Shown piece after piece: positions 243-15,545 of a DNA stretch of 64,000 bases; the first letter of the stretch is position 1; the number at the start of each line of letters is the position of its first letter. The position numbers and the translations under genes were made by a program. The notes beneath the pieces were generated by a model. The model was not told the origin of the DNA. It saw only the letters and a program-made list of their open reading frames with translations, and searched no databases. The DNA is taken from the NCBI GenBank assembly GCA_000403275.2, contig KE159600.1, positions 62,001 through 126,000 of the forward strand, in the 5' to 3' direction. The DNA comes from Lachnospiraceae bacterium 28-4. Its GTDB lineage: Bacteria; Bacillota; Clostridia; Lachnospirales; Lachnospiraceae.

Positions 243-974
243 TTACACCTCTTCTCTTTTAAACATATAGCAATTAAACACAAAGTTATTATTCCAATAA
301 CCCGTCACATCCGAAGCTGAAAATTTGATATCCATATTATGTTTTGATGCAAACTCCAGAAAAAACTGTTTGGAATAAAACAATTTTGGAAGATTCCTGT
401 ACCTCCCCTCATAATCCTCTATACTCTTTTTCCGGTAGGCAATGCATTCCTCTTTCTTTTCCCTGTCGCAAATATCTATAATTCCTATGGAATGTCTCGC
501 TTTCCGGCACATTTTTTCAAGCACGGCAAGAGCATATTCCTCATCCTCAAAATAAGAAAAAACACTATTAGACAGAACCGCATCATACATGGGAGCTATA
601 GAAATCCGAACCGCCTCTTCACAGATCAGATCTGTTGATGCCAAAGCCCGCCTTGCGCTCTCTATCAGCTGCCCCGAATAATCTGCACCCCCCGTTTCAA
701 TCCCATCCTTTTCAAACAAATATAAATTTGCTCCGCTCCCGCATCCGACCTCATAAACGCTTTTGATGCTTCCTCCATCTCTGTTTTTATTAAATTCAAG
801 TTCGCGCTTTATCTGACGGTACTGTTCCACCCATGCTTCATATGCGGGTCCCTCTTCCTGGACATCAAAACCATTGCTCCTCTTCAGTTCAAGAAAGACC
901 TTTTTCTCATCTTCCTTCTTTAAAATATCCATATCCGCAGAACGTTTTGACCAAACGCTTTTCCACTCATTCAT
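243..974 (-). CDS. Class I SAM-dependent methyltransferase
   Basis: About 243 residues with a Rossmann methyltransferase core: the SAM-binding motif I reads VYEVGCGSGANLYLF, followed by an acidic end of strand 2 and an asparagine-serine region (LSNSVFSYF) at the motif IV position. An upstream in-frame ATG exists, but the ATG at 974 has AGGAGAG eight bases before it and starts two bases after the preceding stop, so I use it. It is the last complete gene of a row of surface-glycan and flagellin modification genes, so methylation of a sugar or of an amino alcohol is the likely role. The substrate cannot be read from the sequence. Confidence 0.75.
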   Translation of the reverse strand: MNEWKSVWSKRSADMDILKKEDEKKVFLELKRSNGFDVQEEGPAYEAWVEQYRQIKRELEFNKNRDGGSIKSVYEVGCGSGANLYLFEKDGIETGGADYSGQLIESARRALASTDLICEEAVRISIAPMYDAVLSNSVFSYFEDEEYALAVLEKMCRKARHSIGIIDICDREKKEECIAYRKKSIEDYEGRYRNLPKLFYSKQFFLEFASKHNMDIKFSASDVTGYWNNNFVFNCYMFKREEV

Positions 975-976
975 TT

Positions 977-2794
977 TTATTTCTCTCCTAATATTTTTTT
1001 CATAGCTTCCCATAATCTGCAGTTCTCATCTCTGTTTCTGACTGCAAGCCTGATATACTGTCTGCCATTTCCTATTTTAGCTGTCAGATCCTTAATAAAT
1101 ATATTATAATCCGCCAATAACCTTTCCGTCATTTCCGCAGAAGAAATCCCGTTTATAATTTCACACATGATGTAGTTAGCCTGGGAGGGATAAACCCTTA
1201 ATCCCGGCAGTTTCTCCAGCTTATGAAACCACTCATTCCGCGTTTCTTTTAATTTACGGAGTGCATCTTCATAATCCCTATGATATTTCCCCTCTATCTG
1301 CATATAAAATTCTGCAAAAGAATTAATATTCCAGATAGGAATACTTTTCTTTATTTTTTCCAAATACTCTATTTGGGCAGAAGCCAGTATTCCCAACCGA
1401 ATGCCCGGTACTCCATAGGATTTGGATATGCTTTTCATTACTATCAAATTTGGATATTTTTGCAAAATTTCATTGTGGATCAGCGTATTATCCTCTCCTT
1501 CGGCAAAATCCGCAAAGCTCTCATCCACCAGCAGCCTGATCCCTTTGTATCCGGCCCATTCGCACAGCCGCAGAATCCCTTCCTTCTTAATAAAATTACC
1601 GCTCGGATTATCGGGGTTGACTAATACCAGCATCGATATCGCCTTATTTCCGAAAAATTCCATCAACTTATTCTCATCATACCGGAATCCCATGTCCTGC
1701 GTCTGAAATATCTCGCATTTTTCTTCCTCATACCTGTTCGGATATTCCTCAAACGTCGGCTTTATAATCCCTATCTTCCCCTCTTCTATATCCAATACGG
1801 CTTTAATTAATTCTGACGCGCCGTTTCCCGGTATAATATATTCCTGCTTTACCCCGAAATTTTTTGCTGCCAGCAAAGAATTCACTTCCATACCGGAAGG
1901 ATATTGAGACATCAGGATCTCAAAGTTTCCTTTTATTTCCTCTAATAACCTTTTTGGCGGGAAGTATGGATTGACCAGATAACAATAATCCAACATTTTA
2001 GGATATCTCCAATATCCTCCATACCGCCTCTGTATCCGCCTGACTTTATCTTCCTTTGTATTGGAAAAAATGGATTCCGCTATATCCAGATCCTGCATAT
2101 CATCAATCTCATACCACAGCTTTCCATTCATCTTTTTGGCTTTGATCACAGGTTTTTCCAGCATGGTAATAACCTTTAATACCTGCTCATAATATTCATT
2201 ATTCCCCAATGCTTCCAGATAAGCTTCCAAAAACGGTATATAATAATGCGTGGAGAAATGTCTGCTGAACTTATAGATATTCACCGTTTTATAGTAAGCA
2301 TCTTTCTCATGAAACCGTACCTTTCTGCCTTCAATGAATTTCAAAATATGATCTTCATCATCCAGCTCCATTACCGTCCCATCCATCCAGCTTTCAAATT
2401 TGTCTACCAGCGCCAAAGTGTCCCTTTCATCCTGAAGCAGATCCTCCAACACCCCGTCTTCAACAATCAGATCCGACTCCAGCAATAATGTATCATCTAA
2501 TTTCATATACTCTCTGGCTAAAAATAATGAGTAAATATTATTGGTCTTATGATAAATCGTGTTTTCTATGTATTGAACCGGCGTTTCTATTCCCAGTCCA
2601 TTTACATAATCCATCAATTTACGCCCCTCATAGCCAACTACAATTATGATCCGGTTAAGGCCCAGTTTATCCAACTGCCCGAGTACCCTTTCAATAAGAG
2701 TTATCCCATTCACCCGGATCATGCACTTGGTATTGTTGCTCGTCAATTCCTTTAACCGTTTTCCCATTCCTGCCGCCAATATTATTGCATGCAT
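977..2794 (-). CDS. Bifunctional sugar/alcohol-phosphate nucleotidyltransferase fused to CobD/HisC-like PLP enzyme
   Basis: Two domains in about 605 residues. Residues 1-245 are a LicC-like nucleotidyltransferase with the signature LAAGMGKRL (6-14) and an ESDL metal-site aspartate near 108. Residues 265-605 are a fold-type I PLP enzyme of the HisC/CobD group, with NPDNPSG at 393-399, VDESF at 423-427 and the Schiff-base lysine in SISKSYGVPGIRLG (about K458). The start at 2794 is chosen because the first motif follows at once and GGAAGGAACAGGAAG precedes it. CobD-type enzymes decarboxylate O-phospho-threonine, and some relatives act on O-phospho-serine. With the cytidylyltransferase and two LicD genes upstream, I infer synthesis of a CDP-amino-alcohol such as CDP-ethanolamine or CDP-aminopropanol. 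PntC also fuses such a cytidylyltransferase to a transaminase, but of the class V type, which this is not. Confidence 0.8.
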   Translation of the reverse strand: MHAIILAAGMGKRLKELTSNNTKCMIRVNGITLIERVLGQLDKLGLNRIIIVVGYEGRKLMDYVNGLGIETPVQYIENTIYHKTNNIYSLFLAREYMKLDDTLLLESDLIVEDGVLEDLLQDERDTLALVDKFESWMDGTVMELDDEDHILKFIEGRKVRFHEKDAYYKTVNIYKFSRHFSTHYYIPFLEAYLEALGNNEYYEQVLKVITMLEKPVIKAKKMNGKLWYEIDDMQDLDIAESIFSNTKEDKVRRIQRRYGGYWRYPKMLDYCYLVNPYFPPKRLLEEIKGNFEILMSQYPSGMEVNSLLAAKNFGVKQEYIIPGNGASELIKAVLDIEEGKIGIIKPTFEEYPNRYEEEKCEIFQTQDMGFRYDENKLMEFFGNKAISMLVLVNPDNPSGNFIKKEGILRLCEWAGYKGIRLLVDESFADFAEGEDNTLIHNEILQKYPNLIVMKSISKSYGVPGIRLGILASAQIEYLEKIKKSIPIWNINSFAEFYMQIEGKYHRDYEDALRKLKETRNEWFHKLEKLPGLRVYPSQANYIMCEIINGISSAEMTERLLADYNIFIKDLTAKIGNGRQYIRLAVRNRDENCRLWEAMKKILGEK

Positions 2795-2843
2795 CTTCCT
2801 GTTCCTTCCTATCCGCATAACTCTTTTGCATATGTTTTCCCCG

Positions 2844-3692
2844 CTACTCGTTACCATCCCGTTTCCACTGTTGGGGAATCATATAATCTTCGCCATATAA
2901 AACCGTAAGGATATCATGATACCCTGTCGGTACCGGTATCATAAAATTCTCAAATGGCATCCTGACGCTTTCCGCATACCACTCTTTTTTATAATGGTAT
3001 CTGTGTTCCATATCCGGCCTGTACATAAGGAGCGCTAATTCGTCTGACTCGTCTTTCCTATACAAACAAGCAAGGCGATCCATCAATATCAGCAACTGAT
3101 TAATCAAATTTTTGTCTCTTGCTATCTGTACTTTACACATCTCCTCGATCTCGCAGATATTCTCCTCCAGTCCGGTCCAGTTCTCCTTTTTTATTTTCCA
3201 TATTGTTCCCAGGCAATGCTGCAGGATCAAATACAATACCTCTTCCTCATCTTTATTGCGCGGCAGGTAATCCAATGGAAATATATCTACCCCTACAATA
3301 TCCGGACAACCATGGTATTTTTCCGGATAATCTGCATCATTTACGGTCTGAACCTTGGTAAATGCCTGGTCATATGTCTTCTCGCAATATGCGTTTACGA
3401 CTCTTAACCCTTTTTCTCTCCATTCTCCGGGAACCGCTGCCAAAAACCTCTTGTAATCATTTCTTTCCATTACAATATCAATATCATTATCCCAGGGGAT
3501 AAAACCTCTATGCCTAATCGTTCCCAATAATGTGCCGCTGTCCGCATAATATGGAATCCCATTCTTTTCACAGACCTCGTCTATCGCCGCCAAAACCTCT
3601 AATTCTGCCGCCCATACCCGCTTCATCTTCTCCTCTACGAAATAATTTTCTCTCCATTCCCCTTTCAGGAAATTGTCCTCAAATCTCTGCAT
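2844..3692 (-). CDS. licD: LicD family phosphotransferase (second copy)
   Basis: LicD-type protein (about 282 residues). LicD enzymes move a phospho-alcohol, classically phosphocholine, from a CDP donor onto a sugar; they belong to the nucleotidyltransferase fold. The signature ADSGTLLGTIRHRGFIPWD is at about 50-68, followed by NDID. The usual middle aspartate of the WDDDID metal motif is Asn here, while its tandem partner keeps DDDID. The start at 3692 has AAAGGAGA upstream and overlaps the previous stop by 14 bases; an upstream in-frame start at 3812 would read far into the neighbour and lacks support. It sits between licD copy 1 and the cytidylyltransferase fusion, which would supply its donor. 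Confidence 0.85.
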   Translation of the reverse strand: MQRFEDNFLKGEWRENYFVEEKMKRVWAAELEVLAAIDEVCEKNGIPYYADSGTLLGTIRHRGFIPWDNDIDIVMERNDYKRFLAAVPGEWREKGLRVVNAYCEKTYDQAFTKVQTVNDADYPEKYHGCPDIVGVDIFPLDYLPRNKDEEEVLYLILQHCLGTIWKIKKENWTGLEENICEIEEMCKVQIARDKNLINQLLILMDRLACLYRKDESDELALLMYRPDMEHRYHYKKEWYAESVRMPFENFMIPVPTGYHDILTVLYGEDYMIPQQWKRDGNE

Positions 3693-4656
3693 GATTGCCG
3701 CCGTTCTCCTTTCCCTCCCGATACAGCCGTTGCAATTCCATATCCTGCTTTTTATAAAATGGATACTCATGGTCTCCTCCCTCTCTCTTAGGAACCATAT
3801 AATCACTTCCATATAGCGCGCTTAACACACCATGATATCCCACGGGTATCGGTATCATAATATTTTCAAAGGGGGTTAATATGCTTTCTTCATACCAGCT
3901 GCGTTCATATTTATATCTTACATCCTTCGCAATATCAAAAGCTGCCAGTTCCAGCTCATCCGATTCTGTTGTCCTGTATGACTGTACAAGCCCGTCCATC
4001 AAATTGACCAGTTGGAACTTCAGGCTTTTATTCCGAAACAGTTTTACGCGGCACAGCTCCTCGGCCTTCCTTATATCCATTTCCATATCCTCCGCCCGCC
4101 AGGCTTCAACGTCTACGCTCAGCCGATATATCATGCCCTGCAGATATTTTAATACGGCATACCATACCTGTTCTTCCTCTTTGGCAGAAGGAACATTATC
4201 GATTGGAAAAATATCTATCCCCACTGCGTAAGGACAGCCATGAAAGCGAAGCATATGGTCCGCGCCCGAATCATATCTGTCTCCATTTGTTATTCTTCCA
4301 AAAAGCTGATCGCTGCCATGGGCTAAATCAAGGATTCTCCATCCGTCAGGCAATTCCTTGTCCGCAACAGAAAAAAAACGAAGGTAGTCCTCTCTTAACA
4401 TAGCGAGATCGATATCATCATCCCATGGAATAAATCCTTTATGCCTCACCGCTCCCAGCAATGTGCCGCTGTCAGCAAAATATCTTATCTCATTTCTTTT
4501 ACAGATTCTATCGATTTCTTTGAGCACTTCCATCTGAGCGGCCCATGCATGCTTCATTTTTTTTTCTATAAAAAAATCTTCCCTTATCTCATCCTGAAAA
4601 AAAGCATCCTGGAAAAATATCCTCTTCCTTATGATGCCCTCTACATCTATTGACAT
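3679..4656 (-). CDS. licD: LicD family phosphotransferase (first copy)
   Basis: A 325-residue LicD-type phosphotransferase with the full signature ADSGTLLGAVRHKGFIPWD at about 61-79, followed by DDID, whose aspartates bind metal. No signal peptide or membrane helix, so it acts in the cytoplasm. AAGGAG precedes the ATG at 4656. The tandem copy downstream is clearly paralogous along its length and overlaps this gene by 14 bases, so the two are translationally coupled. The context (fused cytidylyltransferase/PLP enzyme, CgeB-like glycosyltransferases, FliB) points to addition of a phospho-amino-alcohol to flagellar or other surface glycan. Confidence 0.88.
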   Translation of the reverse strand: MSIDVEGIIRKRIFFQDAFFQDEIREDFFIEKKMKHAWAAQMEVLKEIDRICKRNEIRYFADSGTLLGAVRHKGFIPWDDDIDLAMLREDYLRFFSVADKELPDGWRILDLAHGSDQLFGRITNGDRYDSGADHMLRFHGCPYAVGIDIFPIDNVPSAKEEEQVWYAVLKYLQGMIYRLSVDVEAWRAEDMEMDIRKAEELCRVKLFRNKSLKFQLVNLMDGLVQSYRTTESDELELAAFDIAKDVRYKYERSWYEESILTPFENIMIPIPVGYHGVLSALYGSDYMVPKREGGDHEYPFYKKQDMELQRLYREGKENGGNHAEI

Positions 4657-4704: not shown

Positions 4705-5919
4705 TCAGGATTGTACCAGCCAATATAAATTAGCGACGGATAATATGTTCTGTTCCTTCAAATCCTCCAGTATGGTTTTGAGCATTTCTCTTCCATGGCT
4801 CAATCCGCGAATCACAAAAGCAATAATAATCTCATAATCCTCCCAATGTATTTCCCGATATACGGCATAATGCATGATACATAAATATTTGATCAATATT
4901 TGCTCACAAACAATTTCCCAATAATTATCCACCATATAGGAAGAGGTCCATCCTTCCATCGCATATCTCATCCACTCATAAGCTATTACCTGTTCCATCA
5001 ATATATTAAAATTTTCTTCCTCGCCAACGGCCCATTCCTCCATACATTCTTTATATTCCTCGTAAGTAATGCTTACATTCTTATGGAATAATTTTGATAT
5101 CCTTAATAAACTGTTGCCTTTATCATAATATGTAACCGAAATTATCTTCTCTTGGAATTCTACCATCATCGAACGTAACTGATAAAATTGTTTTTCTTCT
5201 TCTTTCCGGATATTCCCTAAGGCCTCCATGATTCGTTCCATAAAAGCCGGATTTAACATCTCTTCCAGCAGCGCCTGTACTTCTTCTTTCTTTCCTTGTT
5301 GGCGGGCTTCCTCAATACGATTCAAACAGTATGCTGCAAAAAATTCCCGGAACCACAATGGCTGTTCCCGATTCTGCAGGAAATCCAATATCTGATCCCT
5401 GATCCACAGATCCAACTCGATCGTACTATATAACTCCTCTATCTCTTTCCTCGTTTCTTCCGGTACGCCCTCCCCCAAGCCATCATCTACCGCCCTTCCA
5501 TCCTCTTCCAATATAAAGGATAAAGGCTCTTTCAAATCCTTTAGGAAAGACACCACTGCCGGACAGGATAATGATAAGTATTGTTCTTCCGTTGTTACGG
5601 TCATAAACTGTTCTCTTGGATATCTTTTACATGTCAGGCACAGCGCTTCCTCTCCTTTTTCCTTAATCAGCATACATAGCTGTTCTTCATCGCAGAAAAG
5701 GCATACCCCTTTTTCATTCAATCTCATAACATGGATATCTTTTTCTTCCATATATTCAATATTTTCTTCAATCTTTCTTTTGATATCGCCTTCATATTGT
5801 TCATATCTTGCATAAGAGTCTTTATCTACCCCAATATTCCATCCGCCGCAGCAAGTATATGGACATTCCTTTCCTATGCACTGAAACCTGTCATAAAAAA
5901 ACGGTTTTAATATATACAT
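4705..5919 (-). CDS. fliB: Flagellin lysine-N-methylase FliB
   Basis: About 404 residues. The N-terminus has the FliB cysteine pattern: C14, C19, C23, C24 within CIGKECPYTCCGGW, and a second cluster at C73, C76, C82, C94 and C97, expected to hold an iron-sulfur centre. FliB methylates the epsilon-amino group of surface lysines of flagellin, known from Salmonella and also found in clostridia. The start at 5919 has AGAGGAG eight bases upstream; an in-frame ATG-ATG at 5952 has no ribosome binding site. Its place in the island downstream of flagellin matches the role. Confidence 0.85.
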   Translation of the reverse strand: MYILKPFFYDRFQCIGKECPYTCCGGWNIGVDKDSYARYEQYEGDIKRKIEENIEYMEEKDIHVMRLNEKGVCLFCDEEQLCMLIKEKGEEALCLTCKRYPREQFMTVTTEEQYLSLSCPAVVSFLKDLKEPLSFILEEDGRAVDDGLGEGVPEETRKEIEELYSTIELDLWIRDQILDFLQNREQPLWFREFFAAYCLNRIEEARQQGKKEEVQALLEEMLNPAFMERIMEALGNIRKEEEKQFYQLRSMMVEFQEKIISVTYYDKGNSLLRISKLFHKNVSITYEEYKECMEEWAVGEEENFNILMEQVIAYEWMRYAMEGWTSSYMVDNYWEIVCEQILIKYLCIMHYAVYREIHWEDYEIIIAFVIRGLSHGREMLKTILEDLKEQNILSVANLYWLVQS

Positions 5920-5966
5920 TCCGCCTACTCCTCTCATCTGCCGGATCATCATTCCACATTCATTTT

Positions 5967-6860
5967 TTAGGCATGCTCAATATGAAAGCAGGCATGATCC
6001 CCATACTCCCTTTTATTCAGTTCAGCTGTTTTCTCCTTAAAATATTGAATCGTTTTTGCACCCAGCTGATTGCAAAGCACCGCATAATTTCCTTCAAATA
6101 TTCTCAACGGAACCCCCAATTCATAGTAATAACTAATAATAAACTGGAAGTCATTGGAAAGATATTCTACCTTGCTTACTTTCAATCCGTATTTCCCACA
6201 TATATACTCCATGCTTTTTCTCGTGTGAATAAAAAGATGTCTGGGTGCGTCCAGCTGATACCAGTTTACCCCAAATGTATCAAATGCCGCATTGGGAAGT
6301 ACTGGTATGCGGATCTGGCAGACCCCGGTCTTTTCCAGCATTCTGCTGACACATTCCATCGTTTCCAATGGCGTACCTATATGTTCAAAAGAATCCTGCA
6401 TTCTGATAAAGTCAAACTTTCCCTCCATTTGACCCAGTTCCCCTTTTTTTATATAAACCCTGTCTCCATAATAAATATCATTTTCAATAAACGGATCGCA
6501 CCCATATAAATTTCCATGTCCTTTATTTGCCAGTTCAAGAAGGTATTCTCCTGTTCCACACCCTACATCCAATATACGATCCTTCGTATATATGGCGTCC
6601 CCTTCAAATTCATATTCCTGTCTTTCTTGCATGCTATAATAGTTATCCTTATAATATTTCCCCAAATCATCCGGTATCTGCACTATCTGCATACACCCGC
6701 AATCCCCGCAAATAAAATAATCAAATTCCTCCTTTGTTCCGTACATCATTTCTTTTGCCGTATATGTTTTATTTTTATGATAGGCCCCGCATATTTTGCA
6801 GCGGTTCCATTCCCAGCGGCATTCGTCTCTGCCCATTTTGAACTCCGTCGTTCCAGTCAT
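5967..6860 (-). CDS. Class I methyltransferase with N-terminal zinc-binding cysteines
   Basis: A 297-residue protein. The N-terminus has two paired cysteine motifs, CKIC near residue 21 and CGDC near residue 51, typical of the zinc-binding head of sugar C- or O-methyltransferases. The SAM site RILDVGCGTGEYLLELA follows near residue 95, and the QDSFEHI segment matches the motif after strand 4 in Methyltransf_23-type enzymes. The ATG at 6860 is six bases after GGAGGG and starts three bases after the stop of the preceding CgeB-like gene. Probable role: methylation of a sugar used by the neighbouring glycosyltransferases. The substrate is unknown. Confidence 0.78.
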   Translation of the reverse strand: MTGTTEFKMGRDECRWEWNRCKICGAYHKNKTYTAKEMMYGTKEEFDYFICGDCGCMQIVQIPDDLGKYYKDNYYSMQERQEYEFEGDAIYTKDRILDVGCGTGEYLLELANKGHGNLYGCDPFIENDIYYGDRVYIKKGELGQMEGKFDFIRMQDSFEHIGTPLETMECVSRMLEKTGVCQIRIPVLPNAAFDTFGVNWYQLDAPRHLFIHTRKSMEYICGKYGLKVSKVEYLSNDFQFIISYYYELGVPLRIFEGNYAVLCNQLGAKTIQYFKEKTAELNKREYGDHACFHIEHA

Positions 6861-6863
6861 CTC

Positions 6864-8036
6864 TTACCCTCCTATGACATCCATTATCTCATTCACTCGT
6901 TTTCGATACGTATGTTCCCGTTTTACCTTTCTGTAACCGTTTTCAGCTATTTCTTTTCGCTCTTTTTCATGGCTCAGATAATATTCCGTCTTCGTTTCCA
7001 GATCTTCATAGTCCGTATAGTATATAAAATCCTCGCCATCAATAAAAAATTCCAAATAATCCTCCTGATAATTACTCAGCAAAAATCCCTTATTGCCCAT
7101 AATTTCAAAAGAGCGCAAAGGAATTCCCGTTAAAATACTCTTTAGTGTTATGTTCAGATTTATTTTTGAGCAACGGTATATCATCGGCGCTTCTTTCATC
7201 ACCTCTGCCGTTCCCCTGTTCCTTACCCCGGGAAGTTCCCGGGTCTCCTCATAGGTATAAAGGTCAACCTGATATTTTTTTGAAAGCAGGTTTAATATTT
7301 CCGTTCTTTCCAAAGCTGTAACCTGCCTGGCCAGAAAATAATGAGCATATACCCATTCCAGCCTTTCAAAGCCATCTTCGTTTACCTCCAGGGGGCAATG
7401 CGCCATCATATCTTCCATGATTTCAGGCACAATCGCCTTCTCCAATAAAAATTCGCCGTATATACGCTTCTGCATCTGTATGCATCCATCCAGATATCCT
7501 TTTGTTTTCCGGCTGACAGCCCCCAGCCTTTCATAAAATCTGTGTTTTTTCTCCCAATAAGTAGAACCTATAAAGGAAATCTGTGTCCGGTATAAACTTT
7601 TCTCCACATCTGTTTCGCTATATCTGTCATATCTTTCTACCGGAGCAGCCATAGGCAAATAGTAAACCGTATCAATCCCCTTGCTCCACAAATCTTCGCA
7701 AGTTCCCTTGTCAAAAACAAATACATAATTATAAGGGTAATTGATCGTATTGGAATAAAGCTGTATAAACGGACTGTCAAACGTCCATGATATATATTTT
7801 ATCCTGCATGCGTTGCATGCAATGGAAATAACCGGAAAATAGTTAAACGAAAATACAAAATCATACTTATTGCCTGCGATCGTCCTGACAATCTCTTCAC
7901 ACAGTTTCTGATTTATCCTTGTGTTTTCTTTTTCCCTGGGAAATGAATAATGTACCACTTCCCATCCTCTTCGCACAAACTCATCCGCTAAATCTTTCTG
8001 GCCCAGGCTCTTCCATGCCATGAACAAAATTTTCAT
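6864..8036 (-). CDS. CgeB-like glycosyltransferase, paralog A
   Basis: A 390-residue glycosyltransferase of the CgeB type: an N-terminal DUF3880-like half (starts MKILFMAWKSLGQ) and a C-terminal Glyco_trans_1_2 half with SKINLNITLKS, GIPLRSFEIMG and the closing HEKERKEIAENGYRKV segment, which form the nucleotide-sugar side of a GT-B fold. No membrane segment. Two full-length paralogs lie upstream (9182-10354 and 10389-11555). In clostridia such genes are common next to flagellin and are thought to glycosylate it. Donor and acceptor are not readable from sequence. Confidence 0.82.
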   Translation of the reverse strand: MKILFMAWKSLGQKDLADEFVRRGWEVVHYSFPREKENTRINQKLCEEIVRTIAGNKYDFVFSFNYFPVISIACNACRIKYISWTFDSPFIQLYSNTINYPYNYVFVFDKGTCEDLWSKGIDTVYYLPMAAPVERYDRYSETDVEKSLYRTQISFIGSTYWEKKHRFYERLGAVSRKTKGYLDGCIQMQKRIYGEFLLEKAIVPEIMEDMMAHCPLEVNEDGFERLEWVYAHYFLARQVTALERTEILNLLSKKYQVDLYTYEETRELPGVRNRGTAEVMKEAPMIYRCSKINLNITLKSILTGIPLRSFEIMGNKGFLLSNYQEDYLEFFIDGEDFIYYTDYEDLETKTEYYLSHEKERKEIAENGYRKVKREHTYRKRVNEIMDVIGG

Positions 8037-8048
8037 GCCTTCTCCCTC

Positions 8049-9167
8049 TTAATAATCATCATTTGTTTCCAAATCAATATTCTCATTTTTAAAATATGGA
8101 TTTAAATACAAAAATAAATTGCAGATAGAAAAAGGAAAATTTTGTTTCCAGGCTATATAATTAAACACATTTCCCATAAAAGAATAGCAATCCTGAATCT
8201 CTTTCCACCATGCTTCCATTACTTCACACATACTCTTGTCACGGTGATCCCTCGCCATGATCCTGCTGTCTATCAGCCCGTTATGTCTCGGATAACCTTC
8301 CTTTTCATAGCGCACCAGCTTCTTACGGATATCAATATTCAGATCGTCCATTCTCATATGAGTCACAGACATATCCTCATAAATGCAATCTTCCTTCGCA
8401 CTCGAAAATCCTAAAAAGCTTCTTCCTTCTCCATATATTTCACAAAAGCGAAGGATATTCCCTGTAACCTTTATATCAGGGGCAACCCATATGCTATAGT
8501 CATAATCTTCCAACAGTTCATGCGGCATAATTTTATACCGGCTCTCCAAAAGTCTTTCTTCCATATCCCCGGCATCTTCTATAGCACAGTATTGCCATAC
8601 TCCTTCTGTTGTTCCCCATTTCTCTTTATTATCGGTAAAGCATATATAATCCAGCTGTGCATCAACCTCTTCCGGCTGCATCAATTTCTTATCGCCCAAA
8701 ATACAGGTATAAACCGCTCCTTTCCCTTTTCCCAAAGCTCCTCCGGCTGTCTTTGGGATTTTTTTCTGCCTCTCCTGATGCAATCGGTATTGCATCTGGG
8801 CATTGTTCGTTCCCAAATCGATGATCATTTTCCGATATGGTTTTTCGCGAAAAACCTTTTCATCTTCGCTCAAAGCTGTATATAAGGCTATATAACTGCT
8901 TTCGAACAACTGCATAAGAAGGCCGCATTCCTCCATATCTTTTCTTTCGACCGCCTTCTCCAAACACTTCTTATAAATTCCGGGGATTTCCTGAAACCCG
9001 TCATTCGGTTGACTTCCTATGCATTCCCAAAAAGATTCCCCCAATGTACATTCCATCAGGTTATTGATCTCGCCCATTGGAAAAATATCCGGCGATATGT
9101 TTCCATTTCGAATCGCTCTGCGTAATTTTTCTACCAAGTTGATCACATTTTCATCTACTCTAATCAT
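8049..9167 (-). CDS. DUF616-like glycosyltransferase with unknown N-terminal region
   Basis: About 372 residues. Residues 1-145 are helical and unrecognised. From about 150 on, the sequence fits the DUF616 (TOD1/MUCI70-like) glycosyltransferase domain: AVYTCILGDKKLMQP, then LDYICFTDN, then SRYKIMPHELL and DYDYSIWVAPDIKV, where members of the family usually have an aspartate pair. The open frame can begin at GTG 9176, but the ATG at 9167 has AGGTGG five bases upstream and is preferred. It lies between CgeB-like genes, supporting a role in the same glycan. Confidence 0.65.
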   Translation of the reverse strand: MIRVDENVINLVEKLRRAIRNGNISPDIFPMGEINNLMECTLGESFWECIGSQPNDGFQEIPGIYKKCLEKAVERKDMEECGLLMQLFESSYIALYTALSEDEKVFREKPYRKMIIDLGTNNAQMQYRLHQERQKKIPKTAGGALGKGKGAVYTCILGDKKLMQPEEVDAQLDYICFTDNKEKWGTTEGVWQYCAIEDAGDMEERLLESRYKIMPHELLEDYDYSIWVAPDIKVTGNILRFCEIYGEGRSFLGFSSAKEDCIYEDMSVTHMRMDDLNIDIRKKLVRYEKEGYPRHNGLIDSRIMARDHRDKSMCEVMEAWWKEIQDCYSFMGNVFNYIAWKQNFPFSICNLFLYLNPYFKNENIDLETNDDY

Positions 9168-9181
9168 AAATGCCACCTATT

Positions 9182-10354
9182 CTATTCCAAATTCATAATA
9201 TTTATCATTGTATCCAGCCTATGCTTATAAGTATGGTATTTTTTTACCTTCTCATAACCGTTTCTCGCGATCTGCTTCCTTTCCTCTTCATGGCTCAGAT
9301 AATACTCTGTCTTTTCCAGCAGATCCTCATAGCTATCATAGTAGGCAAAGTCAACGCCCGGCTCAAAGCAATCCAACATGTCTTCCTGATAATTGGTAAG
9401 CAGGAATCCTCCGCTTCCCATAATCTCAAAAATTCTTAAAGGAATGCCGGTGCGTATGGAACGCAATGTAATATTCAAATTGATTTTAGAGCATCGGAAA
9501 ATATAAATAGCTTCTTTTCGGTTTCCTGCCATTCCACGATTAATAATATGGGGCATCGCCGGAGTTTTTTTACGCGTATACAGATAGCATTTATATTTTC
9601 TGGAAAGCAGCTCCAGAATCTCCTGCCTCTCCATTGCCGTAATACATCTTGGAAGTACTACTTGTCCATAATATCTGCTATGGCTGAAGGTAGCATCCTC
9701 CCTTTGGATCATATGGTAAATCCCCTGCAGCTTTTCCTGAAGCTCAGGCGTAAGCATTTCTTCCAGCATTAAATTCCCATATATCCTTTTCTGTGCCTGT
9801 ATCAACCCATCTACATAACCTTTTTCAAACCGCCCCAGCGCATTTAATTTCCTGTAGTCATTGAACTGGTTCTCTGCATAAGTTGATCCTATAAAAGATA
9901 TCGGCACAGAATATGCTTCTTCCAATTCTTCGTCCATTTCATAAGAATCATATCTTTCTACATTCGCTGCCAGCGGCAAATAATATACGGTATTAATTCC
10001 TCTTCCTTTCATTTCCTGATAATCTGCTTTATCAAACAAAAAAATGTAATTATAAGGAGAAACTACCGAACAATGCCAAAGCGCCACCAATGGACTGTCA
10101 TATATCCATGCCGCATAAGGAACCTTGCAGACACTGCATGCGATCGCCACAATAGGAAAGTAATTTAGAGAAAATACAAAATCATATTTCTTTTTCGACA
10201 TCATTTCAATCATTTCCTGTTCGCGCTTTTGATTGGAGAAATGATCTTCTTTCCTTTCCAGATTATACTGATCCACCTCGTATTCCCGCCTGTCAAATTC
10301 CGCTTGTATATCATCCCTCCCAAAAGCATTCCAAGTTATGTGCAATACTTTCAT
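9182..10354 (-). CDS. CgeB-like glycosyltransferase, paralog B
   Basis: A 390-residue paralog of the genes at 6864-8036 and 10389-11555. It begins MKVLHITWNAFG, carries the DUF3880-like N-terminal half with the aromatic IYDSPLVALWHC loop, and ends in the GT-B C-terminal half with SKINLNITLRSIRTGIPLR. AGAGGAAATT precedes the ATG. The three copies differ enough in sequence that they are old duplicates, which fits successive additions of different sugars rather than gene dosage. Substrate unknown. Confidence 0.82.
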   Translation of the reverse strand: MKVLHITWNAFGRDDIQAEFDRREYEVDQYNLERKEDHFSNQKREQEMIEMMSKKKYDFVFSLNYFPIVAIACSVCKVPYAAWIYDSPLVALWHCSVVSPYNYIFLFDKADYQEMKGRGINTVYYLPLAANVERYDSYEMDEELEEAYSVPISFIGSTYAENQFNDYRKLNALGRFEKGYVDGLIQAQKRIYGNLMLEEMLTPELQEKLQGIYHMIQREDATFSHSRYYGQVVLPRCITAMERQEILELLSRKYKCYLYTRKKTPAMPHIINRGMAGNRKEAIYIFRCSKINLNITLRSIRTGIPLRIFEIMGSGGFLLTNYQEDMLDCFEPGVDFAYYDSYEDLLEKTEYYLSHEEERKQIARNGYEKVKKYHTYKHRLDTMINIMNLE

Positions 10355-10388: not shown

Positions 10389-11555
10389 TCACTCTCCCAT
10401 CTGTATTAGTAATTGTTTAATTCGATCCGTATAAGTATGTCCTTCTTTTACTTTTTGGTATCCATTCCTCGCAATCTGCTTCCTTTCTTCCTCATGATTT
10501 AAATAATAATCCGTAAGATAAAGCAATTCTTTCTTGCTCGAATAATATATATAATCAATCCCCGGTTCAAAATACTCTAAAAAATCCTGCTGATAATTGG
10601 TGAGCAGAAAACCTCCGCATCCCATAATATCCATAGCCCGCAGCGGAATGCCTGTATGTATGCTGCGCAAAGTCATATTCAGGTTGATTTTAGAATTTTT
10701 AAAAACAAGTGGCATTTCTTTCACATAATCTACCGTTCCGCAATTTATCACATTTTTAATATCAGAATCCTGCTCCGGCGCGTACACCTTCACCTGGTGG
10801 CTCTCTCCCAGCAGTCCCAATTGTTCTACCCTTTGCTCCCCAGTCATCTTTCTGGCAAGAAAATAGTTGGCATAAATCCATGCGTCAGTTTCCCATTCAT
10901 CCTCTTCCTTTTTTATCGGGCAAACTCTTTGCAGTTCTCTCAGAATATTATCCGTCAAAAGCTCCTCCAAAATAAAATTCCCATATAGTTCAGCCTGCAT
11001 TTTCATAATCGCCTGTAAATATCCCAATGCATATTCATCAATTTCATCAATGTATTGAAAAAAATCCTGCCTTGCCTCATTATATGTGGAACCGACAAAA
11101 GAAATATCCGCGCTATATCTCTCACTCTCCGCCTTTTTCAATTTATCATAATATTTTACCTGAGCTGCCATTGGCAAATAAAATGCATGTTTTACACCAT
11201 ATCGTTTAAATTCATAAAATAAAGATTTATCAAAAAAGAAAATGTAATTCGTATCCAGCATTGTATACTTAGAATAAAGAAGCATATACGGGGTATCGTA
11301 AATCCATGATGCATATTTTATTGCATGTTGATTACATACCCGAGCTGCTATAGGAAAAAAATTAAAAGAAAAAACAAACCGGTATTCTTTCTCCTTCAGC
11401 ACATCTGTCAGCCGTTGGCACAAAACATCGTTATTACGCATATTTTCCTTCCCAAACGGCCAAGGAAAGATATCCACCTCACAATCTGCTTTTTGGAATT
11501 CTTCTATAACATATTCCTGTCCAAAACTATCCCATTCCAACATCAATATATTCAT
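10389..11555 (-). CDS. CgeB-like glycosyltransferase, paralog C
   Basis: About 388 residues, the first gene after flagellin. It begins MNILMLEWDSFGQE, matching the starts of paralogs A and B. An ATG four codons upstream (11567) is possible, but the ATG at 11555 has GGAG six bases before it and agrees with the paralogs. The C-terminal half has SKINLNMTLRSIHTGIPLR and the conserved NHEEERKQIARNGYQKV tail. It is separated from flagellin by a strong hairpin terminator, so the modification operon is either fed by read-through or by a promoter inside the short gap, which I could not identify. Confidence 0.82.
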   Translation of the reverse strand: MNILMLEWDSFGQEYVIEEFQKADCEVDIFPWPFGKENMRNNDVLCQRLTDVLKEKEYRFVFSFNFFPIAARVCNQHAIKYASWIYDTPYMLLYSKYTMLDTNYIFFFDKSLFYEFKRYGVKHAFYLPMAAQVKYYDKLKKAESERYSADISFVGSTYNEARQDFFQYIDEIDEYALGYLQAIMKMQAELYGNFILEELLTDNILRELQRVCPIKKEEDEWETDAWIYANYFLARKMTGEQRVEQLGLLGESHQVKVYAPEQDSDIKNVINCGTVDYVKEMPLVFKNSKINLNMTLRSIHTGIPLRAMDIMGCGGFLLTNYQQDFLEYFEPGIDYIYYSSKKELLYLTDYYLNHEEERKQIARNGYQKVKEGHTYTDRIKQLLIQMGE

Positions 11556-11588
11556 ATTGTTCTCCATACTTCCTGAAATTTTATATCA

Positions 11589-11659: not shown

Positions 11660-12484
11660 TTACTGAAGTAAGGATAATACACCCTGATTTGACTGATTAG
11701 CCTGTGCCAACATTGCCTGACCTGCCTGAGCAAGAATCTGGTTATTAGCATAAGTAACCATAGACTTAGCCATGTCTGTATCACGAATACGAGATTCAGC
11801 TGCCGTTGTATTCTCAACAATGTTATCCAAGTTGTTGATCGTATGATCCAAACGGTTCTGAACGGCACCAAGTGCGGAACGCTGAGAAGCAACTGTCTCA
11901 ATAGCGCTCTTAACAACATCAATGAAGCTTGCAACGCTGCCATATTTGCTGTTTGTCTTCCAATCCTGAGATGTCAGTTTGGAATGAAGCTTGCTAGCCT
12001 GCATATTGGAAATTTCAACGCTCATTGTTTCGCCGCTTTCATTACCAACCTGGAATGAATATGTGCCAGTAGTAGACAATACTTTCTGGTCATTGAACTT
12101 GGTTGTTGTTGCAACACGGTCAATTTCAGAGATCAGCTGATTAATTTCATCGGCAATGTATTTCTTCTGAACAGAAGTATATGTTCCGTTCGATGCCTTA
12201 ACTGTCAGCTCGTTCATTCTCTGCAGCATATCCGTAACTTCGCCCAAAGCACCTTCTGCAGACTGTACTAAAGAAACTGCATCCTGAGCATTTGCAGATG
12301 CCTGATCCAAACCTCTGATCTGACGTCTCATTTTTTCAGAAACGGAAAGTCCTGCTGCATCATCTGCTGCACGGTTAATCTTATAACCGGATGATAATTT
12401 CTCTGTCTGTGATGCCTGTTTGCTCGTTGTGATTCCTAACATTCTGTTAGAGTTCATAGCTGTAAGATTGTGTTGTACTACCAT
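11660..12484 (-). CDS. hag: Flagellin
   Basis: A short flagellin of 274 residues made of the D0 and D1 segments only, with almost no variable outer domain. The N-terminus MVVQHNLTAMNSNRML and KLSSGYKINRAADDAAGL, and the C-terminus with NNLDNIVENTTAAESRIRDT and AGQAMLAQANQSNQGVLSLL, are the conserved polymerising parts. The start at 12484 has AAGGAGG eight bases upstream; the longer open frame lacks support. A sigma-28 promoter lies at 12609-12635 and a CsrA-type hairpin just before the ribosome binding site. Several lysines in the surface part are possible FliB targets. Confidence 0.96.
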   Translation of the reverse strand: MVVQHNLTAMNSNRMLGITTSKQASQTEKLSSGYKINRAADDAAGLSVSEKMRRQIRGLDQASANAQDAVSLVQSAEGALGEVTDMLQRMNELTVKASNGTYTSVQKKYIADEINQLISEIDRVATTTKFNDQKVLSTTGTYSFQVGNESGETMSVEISNMQASKLHSKLTSQDWKTNSKYGSVASFIDVVKSAIETVASQRSALGAVQNRLDHTINNLDNIVENTTAAESRIRDTDMAKSMVTYANNQILAQAGQAMLAQANQSNQGVLSLLQ

Positions 12485-12506
12485 AATATATTCCTCCTTG
12501 AATATT

Positions 12507-12526
12507 AAGTGGCTTCCCTGCCACTT
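12507..12526 (-). promoter_or_regulatory. Candidate CsrA-binding hairpin in flagellin leader
   Basis: In the flagellin mRNA a stem of AAGTGGC pairing with GCCACTT carries the loop AGGGAA, which contains the GGA core of CsrA sites. It lies 13 bases before a second GGA within the AAGGAGG ribosome binding site. This two-site layout matches the way CsrA represses hag translation in Bacillus subtilis, where FliW relieves repression; both partners are encoded here. Confidence 0.65.
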
Positions 12527-12608
12527 TGTTTTCATGTCAGGTTCGGCCCTAGGTTTCCTCACCTTCCATTTGTTTTGTTTGCTAAGTAATTTACTTTACT
12601 TGTATATT

Positions 12609-12653: not shown

Positions 12654-13127
12654 TTATTTTTTTTTGTCCATAAATTGAGGCGACACCATTTGGGATTTGT
12701 TCATATTCCTGTAATAATTCAAAGCTACCTTGGAACTTCTTCTCCCTTTCTTTAATTCTTGTTTTGCATTAGCAAAAAAAATCTCCGCCAACTTCTTGTT
12801 TCTTGCCTCCTGCGCCTGTATTGCTATACTTTTCTCTGTCACCTCTGCAATTTTTTCCTGCAAAATAGCGATCTGGGTTCTATACTTACTTTTTCCTGCC
12901 ACAAGCTGCTCTTTAATATGGGCATACAAACTTTCAAATCCTTCATCCAGCTTGCCCAGCTCATCAATAAGTCTTCCCTTTTCTTCTATGCTACTGTCAA
13001 AATCATCCTCAGAAACAGGTATCGTATTTAAAATTTGTTCCTGCCTGATGCCAAGCTTTTCAATTCTATCCAATACATCCAGTTTTTTATACAGGCTCTC
13101 TTCCAAAACCTGAAGATAATTCTCCAT
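12654..13127 (-). CDS. fliT: FliT-like flagellar chaperone
   Basis: A 157-residue, almost wholly helical and charged protein with coiled-coil character, without signal peptide. It directly follows fliS and overlaps its stop, the place where FliT (the export chaperone for the filament cap FliD) is found. The family is poorly conserved, so the name rests mostly on position, size and composition. A FlgN-like chaperone is the alternative. Confidence 0.6.
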   Translation of the reverse strand: MENYLQVLEESLYKKLDVLDRIEKLGIRQEQILNTIPVSEDDFDSSIEEKGRLIDELGKLDEGFESLYAHIKEQLVAGKSKYRTQIAILQEKIAEVTEKSIAIQAQEARNKKLAEIFFANAKQELKKGRRSSKVALNYYRNMNKSQMVSPQFMDKKK

Positions 13128-13513
13128 TATGCCTTACCTTTCTCTCTGTTTATGCGCATGACTTCTTTCCATGTATCCCTTACAGATCGAAGGTGCTCGC
13201 AAATCTCATCCAAGATCTCCTTATCTTTCTTCATATTGGCCTCTACCAAACGCCGGTCAAGATATACATATATATTTTCGAATTCCTGCGCCACTGGATA
13301 TTTCATATCCAAAGTCTCTCTCAGATATCGTATAATCTTTTCTGTCTTGATCATATTATTATGGGCTTTCTCGATATCACTCTGTTCCAGCCCCATTATA
13401 GCAATATTACAGAATTTAATAGCGCCTTCATAAAGCATCAGCGTAAGTTCTGCGGGTGAAGCAGTCATTACTTTATTACTGCTGTATTGTTCATACCTGT
13501 TTGGTAGAGCCAT
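13127..13513 (-). CDS. fliS: Flagellar export chaperone FliS
   Basis: A 128-residue FliS: starts MALPNRYEQYSSNKVMTASP, followed by ELTLMLYEGAIKFCNIA, the conserved four-helix bundle N-terminus. It binds the C-terminus of unassembled flagellin and delivers it for export. It is coupled to fliD upstream (four-base gap) and fliT downstream (overlap). Transcription comes from the sigma-28 promoter before flaG. Confidence 0.93.
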   Translation of the reverse strand: MALPNRYEQYSSNKVMTASPAELTLMLYEGAIKFCNIAIMGLEQSDIEKAHNNMIKTEKIIRYLRETLDMKYPVAQEFENIYVYLDRRLVEANMKKDKEILDEICEHLRSVRDTWKEVMRINREKGKA

Positions 13514-13517
13514 AATT

Positions 13518-15545
13518 TTACATTCCTCCTAATAAGCTTGATACTGCGCTTTGGTTAGACTGCATCTTTGCCATTGCAGTTTCCATTGCACTAAACTTCT
13601 TATACCACTTATCCTCCATTGCTGTCAACCTAGCTTCTTGTTTTTTAATTTTTTCCGCATAATCTTTATAATCTTCCTGCATTCTCTTATCATCATAGAA
13701 AGAACCAAAACTTCTGATCCCCTCTACGCTCCTGGATTGCCTATCCAGCTCGGCATACAGGTTCTGCGATAACTGGGAGAAAAATGCGATAACAGTATCT
13801 GGATCCGAAGCAATAGCAGCTTTTAGTTCATTATCTTTTGAGCTGACGGCCGAGTCATCCTCATCACCATTAATGTGATACGCGTTTCTTTCATTTTCAG
13901 CCGCACTGAAATAACCCAGTGTCTCAATACCAAAATTCGCCAAATACATCTGTTTGCCATTCACCGTCGCTCCCTGAAGCATAATATTTTTCATGGCCGA
14001 AGATATCGTAGATAAATTGGAATCCCTGCGAAGTATCGAATCTTTGATTTTCGTTTCCCATTTTTCAACATCCGAATCTGAAAGTTCTTTCTTTTCTTCG
14101 TCTGTCAACGGTTCATAATCCTTTGCAGCCTCTGCATTGTACAGCTTATCCATTTCATTGATCAGGGAATTATATTCTTTGAGGAAGTTCTTAACTATAT
14201 TATAAACACCGTCCGTATCGCGTCTGGTAGTCAGCGTTATTTCATCGCTGCTTTCCTGCAATGCAGTAATCGTCAATCCATTTACCTCAAAAGTATTACT
14301 TTCTCCATAATAGTCCACACCATTTAAAACAATATGCGCATCCTCGCCATCAATCTTTTTTGCATTGCTGCCTTTCAGATTTCCCATATCCGGCTTCTTG
14401 GACTCTTCCACGATATCATGAGCTGTTTTGATTTTAGCGCGCCATGCCTGATCCACCTCTGTTCTCAGCGTATCACTGGCCGTAATATTTGCCGGATCAT
14501 CCAGGTTCAAATAGCTTTCTACCTTCCCGATGCTCTTCTCTGTCTCTTCCAGCTCCTTCTGCTGGCTCTCATATTTTTCAACCGCCGACAGCTTGCCTTG
14601 CAGTTTTGCCAACTTATCCTTATCCTCTTCCGTTGCATCCTCTCCGGCATCCTCAATTTGAGTTTTCAAGGAATCGATCTCTTTCTTTAAGTCATCCTTA
14701 TTTACATCTTTTATGTCTGCGCCATACTCCTCAGAAAATGCCTTCTCGCTTTCTGCCAATGCGTCATTCTGTTTTTGCTTCGTCTTTAACAGCTCTTCTC
14801 TTTGGCTTATATACCCTTTCAAGCGGCTGGACACTTCTTGGTCAACAGCTTCCTCTATATCAGCTTCGGACATGTTATTATACTTCTCATATTCCTTTAT
14901 CGTCTTCTCATCATAAGAAAGAATACCAAGCTTCTTTAACGCATCCGTTCCATCCTCATTAGCTGCCGTAATGCTGAAATTATTGATCTCTCCACTTTTT
15001 TTAGACGCGATATGGAAACGCTTATTTTTCTCGTCAAAGCTTGCTTCCACTCCCGCTTCCCGCAGTGTATTCACGAAACTGCCTATCGTCATATCTTCTG
15101 TTATCGATATATCGGTTGATTTACCACCCGTTGTAACTGTAATCGTACTGCCCGCTTTAATCCCCAGATCAGAAAGGCTGCTTTCGCTCGTCACGTCGCC
15201 TTCTACCTTATCTCCCGTCATATATCCAGTCTTTGCCAGCCCTTCCACCTTTAACTTCTGGGTTGCGTCCATAGCATTATCACCGCTTATCACACTAGCA
15301 ATCGCAGAATTGGAGACGTCCGTAATTTTTTTGCTATAATCTGTAGCAAGCCTCATATTTCCAATGGTATTCTGAAAAAGTTTATAAATCTTGGCATTTA
15401 ATTCTTTCCAAGCATCCTGTTTCCACTGAATCGTTGTCTGTTTTTTCTTAACGCTGTCTACTTTCGTTTTCTGCGCCTTCACCAGCTCCGAAATGATACT
15501 TTCCGTATCCAGCCCTGAATTCATACCCGTAATTCTAATCGGCAT
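13518..15545 (-). CDS. fliD: Flagellar cap protein FliD
   Basis: A 675-residue FliD. The N-terminus MPIRITGMNSGLDTESIISE and the C-terminal part with YDDKRMQEDYKDYAEKI and an end in SSLLGGM are typical. It is longer than usual (about 450-500 residues): residues about 215-360 form an inserted, very acidic and lysine-rich stretch predicted to be a coiled coil, rich in EEL, KLQ and EDA runs. The cap directs folding of exported flagellin at the filament tip and may bind mucus. GGAGGAGAG precedes the ATG. Confidence 0.93.
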   Translation of the reverse strand: MPIRITGMNSGLDTESIISELVKAQKTKVDSVKKKQTTIQWKQDAWKELNAKIYKLFQNTIGNMRLATDYSKKITDVSNSAIASVISGDNAMDATQKLKVEGLAKTGYMTGDKVEGDVTSESSLSDLGIKAGSTITVTTGGKSTDISITEDMTIGSFVNTLREAGVEASFDEKNKRFHIASKKSGEINNFSITAANEDGTDALKKLGILSYDEKTIKEYEKYNNMSEADIEEAVDQEVSSRLKGYISQREELLKTKQKQNDALAESEKAFSEEYGADIKDVNKDDLKKEIDSLKTQIEDAGEDATEEDKDKLAKLQGKLSAVEKYESQQKELEETEKSIGKVESYLNLDDPANITASDTLRTEVDQAWRAKIKTAHDIVEESKKPDMGNLKGSNAKKIDGEDAHIVLNGVDYYGESNTFEVNGLTITALQESSDEITLTTRRDTDGVYNIVKNFLKEYNSLINEMDKLYNAEAAKDYEPLTDEEKKELSDSDVEKWETKIKDSILRRDSNLSTISSAMKNIMLQGATVNGKQMYLANFGIETLGYFSAAENERNAYHINGDEDDSAVSSKDNELKAAIASDPDTVIAFFSQLSQNLYAELDRQSRSVEGIRSFGSFYDDKRMQEDYKDYAEKIKKQEARLTAMEDKWYKKFSAMETAMAKMQSNQSAVSSLLGGM

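Follow-up and report, generated by a model that had tools for sequence, protein, structure and literature searches.

In the Lic-1 phosphocholine pathway (LicA-LicB-LicC-LicD), LicC-type activation is combined with transfer by LicD, and the source usually given for phosphocholine and phosphoethanolamine tags on bacterial surfaces is either choline that has been scavenged or a phospholipid donor. The present analysis concerns a protein that joins a LicC-type nucleotidyltransferase (NTase) to a pyridoxal phosphate (PLP) enzyme and is encoded beside two LicD genes in Lachnospiraceae bacterium 28-4 (GCA_000403275.2, contig KE159600.1, positions 62,001 to 126,000). This stretch of 64,000 nucleotides is referred to as the window; the source genome (G000) is 4.28 Mb in size and 98.4% complete. 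The protein, termed the fusion, is probably a bifunctional cytidine diphosphate (CDP)-amino-alcohol synthase that converts phosphoserine into CDP-ethanolamine, which the neighboring methyltransferase MT1 would N-methylate and LicD would transfer to a surface glycan; we infer both fusion reactions, the substrate, the MT1 acceptor, and the LicD target. The locus shares LicC-type activation and LicD transfer with Lic-1, whereas the choline kinase LicA of that pathway is unmatched in the source genome, and the amine of the window would be made rather than scavenged. The main text of a survey of phosphocholine pathways (PMC10434233) contains neither aminotransferase nor decarboxyl*.

Among proteins of known structure, the top Foldseek match over both domains is the PntC-AEPT protein Tde1415 (6PD1/6PD2), which has the same domain order. 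The C-terminal domain of Tde1415 is a class V 2-aminoethylphosphonate (AEP) transaminase, whereas that of the fusion is class I/II, a difference from PntC that the earlier interpretation of this DNA, here called the sequence-only reading, had correctly drawn. The domains are also arranged differently, given a root-mean-square deviation (rmsd) of about 21 Å over the domain pair, and the class V partner and phosphoenolpyruvate (PEP) mutase pathway that define PntC-AEPT were not found for the window fusion. In the biosynthesis of FR-900098, FrbH reportedly carries a cytidylyltransferase and a PLP decarboxylase in one protein. The likeness to the fusion lies in the described make-up: a LicC-family cytidylyltransferase is said to be coupled to a PLP decarboxylase whose substrate is a phospho-amino acid. 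FrbH differs in that it reportedly serves a phosphonate antibiotic pathway with PEP mutase and no LicD, while the source genome has no PEP mutase match. Because FrbH is said to precede it, the fused design is less than new. In the available part of its description, the FrbH cytidylyltransferase acts on 2-amino-4-phosphonobutyrate (PMC6697681).

The closest published parallel in logic is found in the flagellin glycan genes of Clostridioides difficile Type A (CD0241-CD0244) and Pseudomonas aeruginosa b-type (PA1088-PA1091). The proposed Type A pathway consists of SerB-like, LicC-like, methyltransferase, and TagF-like steps, and CDP-threonine has been proposed. As in the window, a LicC-like enzyme, an N-methyltransferase, and a phosphotransferase are proposed to place an N-methylated phospho-amino compound on flagellin glycan. 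In contrast with the window, the accessible portion of the Type A account mentions no PLP domain, the product keeps its carboxylate (N-methylthreonine), and the transferase is TagF-like, not LicD. The Type A set of SerB-like, LicC-like, methyltransferase, and TagF-like genes beside flagellin is absent from the window, where the ten genes scanned beside flagellin contain no HAD or Glyphos_transf domain and carry LicD and the PLP domain instead. Functionally, the window locus would parallel the Type A pathway, with decarboxylation as the difference. The system would be a decarboxylating, LicD-using variation on known LicC/phospho-amino logic, and the claim is less new than first implied.

Architecture and conservation of the fusion

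The fusion is encoded on the minus strand by a single uninterrupted open reading frame (ORF) of 626 aa (977-2857). The N-terminal NTP_transf_3 (LicC/PntC-type) domain (2063-2794, residues about 22-265) scores 43.9 bits in Pfam against a cut-off of 27, and the C-terminal PLP domain (980-2050, residues 270-626) scores 92.2 bits as Aminotran_1_2 (cut-off 19.7). The adjoining minus-strand genes LicD-b (2844-3812) and LicD-a (3679-4656) match PF04991 with 131.7 and 122.9 bits (cut-off 22.6), both proteins spanning model positions 1-227/227. The intact ORF and the Pfam scores bear out the claim of the sequence-only reading that a LicC-like and PLP fusion lies next to two LicD genes. The extent given there (977-4656) covers the fusion and the LicD genes but stops too early, as the S-adenosylmethionine (SAM) methyltransferase gene MT1 (243-1013, minus strand) belongs to the same unit; the tailoring alternatives found elsewhere had also been missed. 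Downstream of flagellin and glycosyltransferase genes, the minus-strand order is LicD-a, LicD-b, fusion, MT1. The common start among 20 aligned fusions is Met22, and hence the fusion probably starts at base 2794 rather than 2857. Relatives of MT1 align from its residues 14-16, which places the likely start at 974 (Met14), 2 nt past the fusion stop. On these shared starts, the likely genes are 977-2794 and 243-974, nearly head to tail. LicD-b probably begins near 3692 (Met41).

Conservation was assessed in 95 fusions, the window copy and 94 unique loci. These derive from a neighborhood set of 101 loci, 98 of which have a fusion ORF; L054, L181, and L191 (no fusion ORF in the neighborhood ORF set) and the near-identical L129, L130, L131, and L189 were left out. 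The residues G30, G32, R34, E127, and D129 of the NTase domain and N345, N414, D445, R487, and W509 are invariant in 95/95 fusions, while the NTase Lys44 is kept in 94, the PLP-binding Lys479 (1421-1423 in the window) in 93, and D253 in 91. The active-site motifs first noted in both domains are therefore real and nearly invariant. The NTase motif fits the consensus GXG(T/S)RX4-8PK, except that Lys takes the place of Thr/Ser and Thr that of Pro; this consensus is given for LicC/PntC-type nucleotidyltransferases in the part of PMC6697681 that was available. By its sequence, the window NTase falls in the LicC/PntC (NTP_transf_3) family and is predicted to use cytidine triphosphate (CTP). The PLP lysine is replaced by Asp in L057 and by Gln in L182, where the PLP domains are apparently dead and the examined NTase residues are retained. 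Such losses, in 2/95 fusions, would suit a protein in which the PLP domain serves for binding alone or is no longer catalytic, leaving a plain LicC; for the window copy, which retains every catalytic position examined, this is extremely improbable.

The fusion occurs in 21 further genomes of a 200-genome family sample (source genome included) at 43-62% identity, one copy being cut by a contig end, and is therefore not a chance ORF. The next matches in the sample have at most 35% identity and are mostly single-domain. A scan of GTDB species genomes gave at least 578 stretches with a fusion relative. The best 80 of these, from which the GTDB-derived named loci are taken and which are hence biased towards the query, share 56-62% identity over nearly the whole length; most belong to Bacillota, and some come from contigs that bear the labels Treponemataceae, Akkermansia, Bacteroidota, and Coriobacteria. 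Among plasmid records, 78 match the fusion and 12 of these cover at least 80% of the query. Plasmid fusions of a cyanobacterium, Rahnella, Erwinia, Priestia, and Pseudonocardia (31-36% identity) are annotated as aminotransferase class I/II-fold, one Erwinia record also as sugar phosphate nucleotidyltransferase; a Fusobacterium plasmid fusion (51%) is unannotated. Searches of the open-licence literature gave no paper that describes LicC-CobD fusions within glycan loci. Genes near the distant fusion (33%) on Priestia megaterium plasmid pBM700 (L207:7992-11638) include an additional DXP reductoisomerase, a pair of ATP-grasp genes, an acetyltransferase of the AAC(3) family, and an MFS transporter. 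This locus is possibly a phosphonate-type antibiotic cluster with self-resistance, for which fosmidomycin reportedly offers a parallel.

Ancestry of the PLP domain

Classification of the PLP domain by NCBI models is limited by their cut-offs, neither of which is reached: the fusion scores 179.1 bits with CobD TIGR01140 (cut-off 290.55) and 143.6 bits with HisC TIGR01141 (cut-off 276.55). Among 60 family genomes, just 3 contain a match above the TIGR01140 cut-off. A maximum-likelihood tree was built from 84 PLP domains, including 29 fusions, SMUL_1544, 32 CobD-labelled rows, Salmonella CobD, and 10 HisC rows. The CobD-labelled rows comprise 30 loci that score best with TIGR01140 in the family genomes (265-306 bits, of which 3 exceed the cut-off) together with L033 and L034. 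Of the HisC rows, 7/8 checked pass the TIGR01141 cut-off, L105 falling short by 1.5 bits. Entries shorter than 230 aa were dropped (L098, L102, L104, L110, and one version of L111), which leaves the HisC of the source genome (L104, 276.0 versus 276.55 bits) outside the tree; L056 is outside the trees as well.

All 29 fusion PLP domains form one clade (100/99) with SMUL_1544 as its sister (100/99), and together they fall on the CobD side, with the 10 HisC rows opposite (100/99). A second tree of 55 rows that includes distant fusions agrees. In an approximately unbiased (AU) test on 30 rows, the grouping of fusions with HisC was rejected (p 0.00034). At position N345, Asn is found in CobD (33/33) and fusions (95/95) and Val in HisC (9/10); at W509, Trp is found in CobD (33/33) and fusions (95/95) and Tyr in HisC (10/10). 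The Trp is kept in all five distant fusions, and the Pseudonocardia protein has Ser at N345. The AlphaFold model of the fusion (pLDDT 87.5, pTM 0.83) gave VIA fold matches to CobD 1lc7 with Z 39.9 and to SMUL_1544 (6OUX) with Z 39.1 (rmsd 2.6 over 358 residues), with alignments spanning residues 274-626, the PLP part. The HisC-annotated chains reach Z 37.1 (3ftb, on the CobD side in the trees) and then 36.4.

The PLP domain is thus on the CobD/SMUL_1544 side. The sequence-only reading had left it as CobD/HisC-type; the CobD half of that label stands and the ambiguity does not. HisC membership is ruled out by the tree, the AU test, the N345 and W509 positions, and a TIGR01141 score below cut-off. 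One of the two outcomes that reading had named as refuting it, firm clustering with transaminases such as HisC, did not occur, and the structural comparison it had proposed favors CobD. A PLP domain acting as a transaminase that makes an amino-alcohol phosphate, such as serinol phosphate from dihydroxyacetone phosphate, is improbable: the fold and motifs are common to HisC, and a HisC-like second LicC-PLP fusion shows that such fusions exist in the source genome, but the tree, AU test, and residues place the window domain with decarboxylases, and it is the paralogue that joins HisC in the tree.

That second fusion (C1:1074968-1076668) is a 643-aa ORF (C1, about 1074848-1076779; L009:8849-10780) that scores 202.7 bits with TIGR01141 versus 128.1 with TIGR01140 and falls on the HisC side in the tree. 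LicC-PLP fusions have thus arisen at least twice; this independent one perhaps makes a different CDP-amino alcohol. It lies in an exopolysaccharide-like locus beside a TagF-like (CDP-glycerophosphotransferase-like) gene. Upstream of that locus is a perfect 2 x 1440-nt palindrome (L009:1-2880; G000:C1:1066000-1068879) with two identical integrase-like ORFs in opposite orientation; it could result from misassembly or represent an invertible element.

The nearest characterized relative of the window PLP domain, SMUL_1544, is tied with CobD in the fold comparison and presumably acts on phosphoserine. The available description assigns it to norcobamide synthesis with an ethanolamine linker and places it, unlike the fusion, as a separate gene in a cobamide cluster beside CbiB. 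Since the sister of the fusion clade is a norcobamide-type enzyme, conversion of phosphoserine to the ethanolamine form is favored.

Metabolic setting in the source genome

In searches of G000, CbiB, PEP mutase, and choline kinase were all unmatched, while their controls were positive in 8, 11, and 5 of 14 genomes, respectively. It is therefore unlikely that this genome assembles cobamides, makes phosphonates, or scavenges choline through that kinase, and the earlier expectation that no external choline is needed agrees with the unmatched kinase. A cobamide role for the fusion in G000 was judged unlikely from the missing CbiB match, the best stand-alone TIGR01140 match scoring 147.7 bits among the matches listed; a phosphonate role was rejected on the missing PEP mutase match. 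SerC is present (528.5 bits, cut-off 443.6), and hence phosphoserine is available. In a search for opine-dehydrogenase-like genes in G000, the control matched in no genome. An AEP transaminase (465 bits, cut-off 360.8) overlaps a LicC-type gene at L010:10715-12596 (G000:C3, about 12714-14595), an orphan PntC-like pair since the genome has no PEP mutase match.

The MT1 methyltransferase

Relatives of MT1 are rare. They were found in none of 199 other family genomes, in one of 397 other genomes of a phylum sample (G398), in one of 72,556 plasmid records, and in none of 50,697 phage records. The plasmid record is from the cyanobacterium Gloeothece verrucosa, where an MT1 relative (34.5%, E 9e-34) stands in the gene order fusion, MT1 relative, LicD; this locus is the module of the window in another phylum. 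In G398 (L215:8998-10442), an AEP transaminase and a PEP mutase flank two overlapping tandem MT1 copies, a LicC-like gene adjoins them, and a phosphonopyruvate decarboxylase lies ~7 kb off; the transaminase, mutase, and decarboxylase all score above their NCBI cut-offs. The G398 pair is a candidate source of N-methylated AEP.

No match to MT1 was found among Protein Data Bank (PDB) sequences and no NCBIfam model scored above cut-off, so that the acceptor is read from gene context. The best evidence that MT1 methylates the amine is its occurrence with two routes to an activated aminoethyl phosph(on)ate. MT1 is thus probably an aminoethyl N-methyltransferase, and its presence in an aminoethylphosphonate cluster somewhat favors ethanolamine over aminopropanol.

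Neighbors of fusions in other genomes

The genes beside the fusion vary across the 94 unique loci, in which clustered genes within four genes of the fusion were counted. An opine-dehydrogenase-like (ODH) gene is present in 25 loci, directly after the fusion in 19 and directly before it in 6; an ornithine-cyclodeaminase-like (OCD/mu-crystallin-like) gene in 12; and an MT1 relative in 4, the copy in L159 being split across two frames. One representative each was checked in Pfam (ODH-like, PF02317, 101.6 bits; OCD-like, PF02423, 111 bits). The three types are never paired in one locus (ODH/OCD overlap 0, hypergeometric P 0.018), and LicD (35/94) likewise never overlaps with TagF/YidC-sulfatase/sulfatase-type genes (19/94; P 4e-5), both values being only indicative as the loci are related. 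On a quick fusion tree, the four tailoring states need 27 changes, with 19 gains or losses for ODH and 11 for OCD, of which well-supported branches force at least 8 and at least 6. The associations have therefore changed repeatedly rather than being inherited once.

The reverse search of the 200 family genomes found OCD-like genes in 4, three of them (G077, G098, G140) with a fusion adjacent or ~3 kb off. ODH-like genes were found in 3 genomes at 4 places: one adjoins a fusion (G123), L203 lies beside LicC, LicD, and a PLP gene, L204 beside LicD genes, and L205, the second place in G123, has none near. Unfused LicC and PLP pairs occur in L203, with LicD and the ODH-like gene, and in L062, near flagellins. 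The solved relatives are octopine dehydrogenase for the ODH-like and pyrroline-2-carboxylate reductase for the OCD-like proteins. Opine dehydrogenases, like some members of the OCD family, act by reducing the imine that arises when an amine condenses with a keto acid. The common denominator of ODH, OCD, and MT1 neighbors would be a free amine on the fusion product, and the slot beside the fusion is probably an exchangeable amine-tailoring module.

Three divergent fusions (L058, L059, L061) have as neighbors HAD-IB proteins that score best with SerB among the NCBI models. The HAD of L061 forms one protein with a second NTase, and Lys44 has been lost from the NTase domain of the fusion itself; in L058 the HAD gene overlaps with that of a separate NTase. 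These arrangements tie the HAD/SerB-like and NTase activities together. These neighbors recall CD0241-CD0242 of the Type A pathway. As CD0241 is the proposed maker of phosphothreonine, they speak for a version of the same architecture in which O-phospho-L-threonine is decarboxylated and the product, CDP-1-amino-2-propanol, is N-methylated by MT1. CobD relatives are indeed named for phosphothreonine decarboxylation, but the norcobamide role of SMUL_1544, the occurrence of MT1 in an aminoethylphosphonate cluster, and the presence of SerC in the source genome all point to serine, and the threonine version is unlikely.

Further neighbors touch on substrate supply and transfer. DUF1015 proteins directly adjoin fusions in three distant loci (L170:2144-3190, L188:12147-13196, L048:10907-12133). 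We suspect DUF1015 to be a kinase of free serine, which would fit a phosphoserine substrate; no paper joining the two was found in the open-licence literature. YidC/Oxa1-type domains (PF02096) are fused to CDP-glycerophosphotransferase-like (L176:7477-9381) or sulfatase-type domains (L161:11878-14505; one representative each checked). Of 98 fusions, 19 and 11, respectively, have these clusters of odd membrane phosphotransferases no more than four genes away. Flagellin-like genes lie near 4 of 98 fusions, in addition to the window.

Proposed pathway and its assessment

In the proposed pathway, SerC would make O-phospho-L-serine, the PLP domain would decarboxylate it to phosphoethanolamine, and the LicC-type domain would load this on CTP to give CDP-ethanolamine. 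Either order is possible, and CDP-serine may form first; in FrbH, the CDP-linked amino acid is reportedly formed first. MT1 would then place one, two, or three methyl groups on the aminoethyl nitrogen, and LicD would move the phospho-amino-alcohol onto a surface glycan, which, judging from the gene position, is probably that of flagellin. The earlier interpretation as a whole is partly supported.

Several observations weigh against this assignment. The PLP domain remains short of the CobD equivalog cut-off, SMUL_1544 is a long branch whose placement was flagged as unsure by the tree program, and the PLP Lys is missing from 2 and the NTase Lys from 1 of 95 fusions. The position of CobD Arg323, which we take to be a substrate-pocket residue, is Lys589 in 93/95 fusions (one gap, one Arg) and in 5/5 distant fusions; it is Arg in CobD (33/33), SMUL_1544, and the unfused Bradyrhizobium relative, so that the fusion pocket differs from those of CobD and SMUL_1544. 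No recognized tailoring gene accompanies 44 of 86 scorable fusions (of 95, window included). The flagellar target is positional, and L060, the only further locus retrieved in which these flagellar glycosylation genes recur, has a divergent fusion (44%) and no MT1. The HAD-IB proteins score 86-96 bits, below the SerB cut-off of 144.15. A choline/ethanolamine-kinase gene is present by Pfam in five fusion loci (L125, L136, L149, L175, L193), and scavenging can therefore coexist with the fusion; a phosphonate (PEP-mutase) label for these five was discarded, as the motif is absent and Pfam shows choline kinase. Finally, a PEP-mutase motif occurs in 3/101 fusion loci (the closely similar L161, L163, and L169), and the PLP gene of a Bradyrhizobium PEP-mutase (aepX) cluster lies inside the same wide PLP clade, which suggests that some members may use phosphonates.

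For the window, a phosphonate version with a CMP-aminoalkylphosphonate product, as for PntC or FrbH, would draw on these motif loci and the Bradyrhizobium cluster, on MT1 in the AEP cluster of G398, and on the AEP-transaminase/LicC pair elsewhere in G000. It is nevertheless very improbable, given the unmatched PEP mutase in a nearly complete genome and the absence of the six-frame motif from the other 98/101 loci, which are short stretches.

The phosphoserine pathway can be extended, more tentatively, to a widespread and modular choline-free platform for zwitterionic surface tags, in which a fused decarboxylase/cytidylyltransferase is combined with exchangeable amine tailoring and LicD/TagF-type transfer. 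We regard this wider proposal as possible but rather doubtful; in the window it would give N-methylated phosphoethanolamine on flagellin glycan, with Lys589 marking a PLP site that acts on a CDP-linked amino acid. One may speculate from Lys589 that another phosphate, perhaps a CDP-linked one, is encountered by the PLP site of the fusion. On the platform, ODH- and OCD-like enzymes would yield N-carboxyalkyl-ethanolamine and MT1 N-methyl forms, possibly de novo phosphocholine. Carboxyethyl-ethanolamine phosphate reportedly occurs in Proteus O-antigens, on which a search of the open-licence literature gave no paper.

Other genes of the window locus

The same-strand array upstream of LicD-a contains, all on the minus strand, a FliB-type flagellin lysine-N-methylase (4705-5952; NF038110, 191.9 bits, cut-off 85), which thus stands among the glycan genes, and a second SAM methyltransferase (5967-6860) with no significant BLAST match to MT1. 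These are followed by three DUF3880/Glyco_trans_1_2 glycosyltransferases (6864-8036, 9182-10354, 10389-11567), an ORF between them in which no family was found (8049-9176), and a flagellin (11660-12562; Hag subfamily match 257.6 bits, under the cut-off of 352), the presumed glycan carrier.

Implications for surface decoration

Almost every annotated fusion among the plasmid records listed bears no other name than that of an aminotransferase-type enzyme. If the proposal is true, a self-contained serine route in many gut, rumen, and other bacteria would explain tags without choline kinase. It would also predict defined N-carboxyalkyl or N-methyl phosphoethanolamine decorations that are directly searchable, and provide a rule for reading glycan loci, in which the gene next to the fusion would be taken as amine tailoring.

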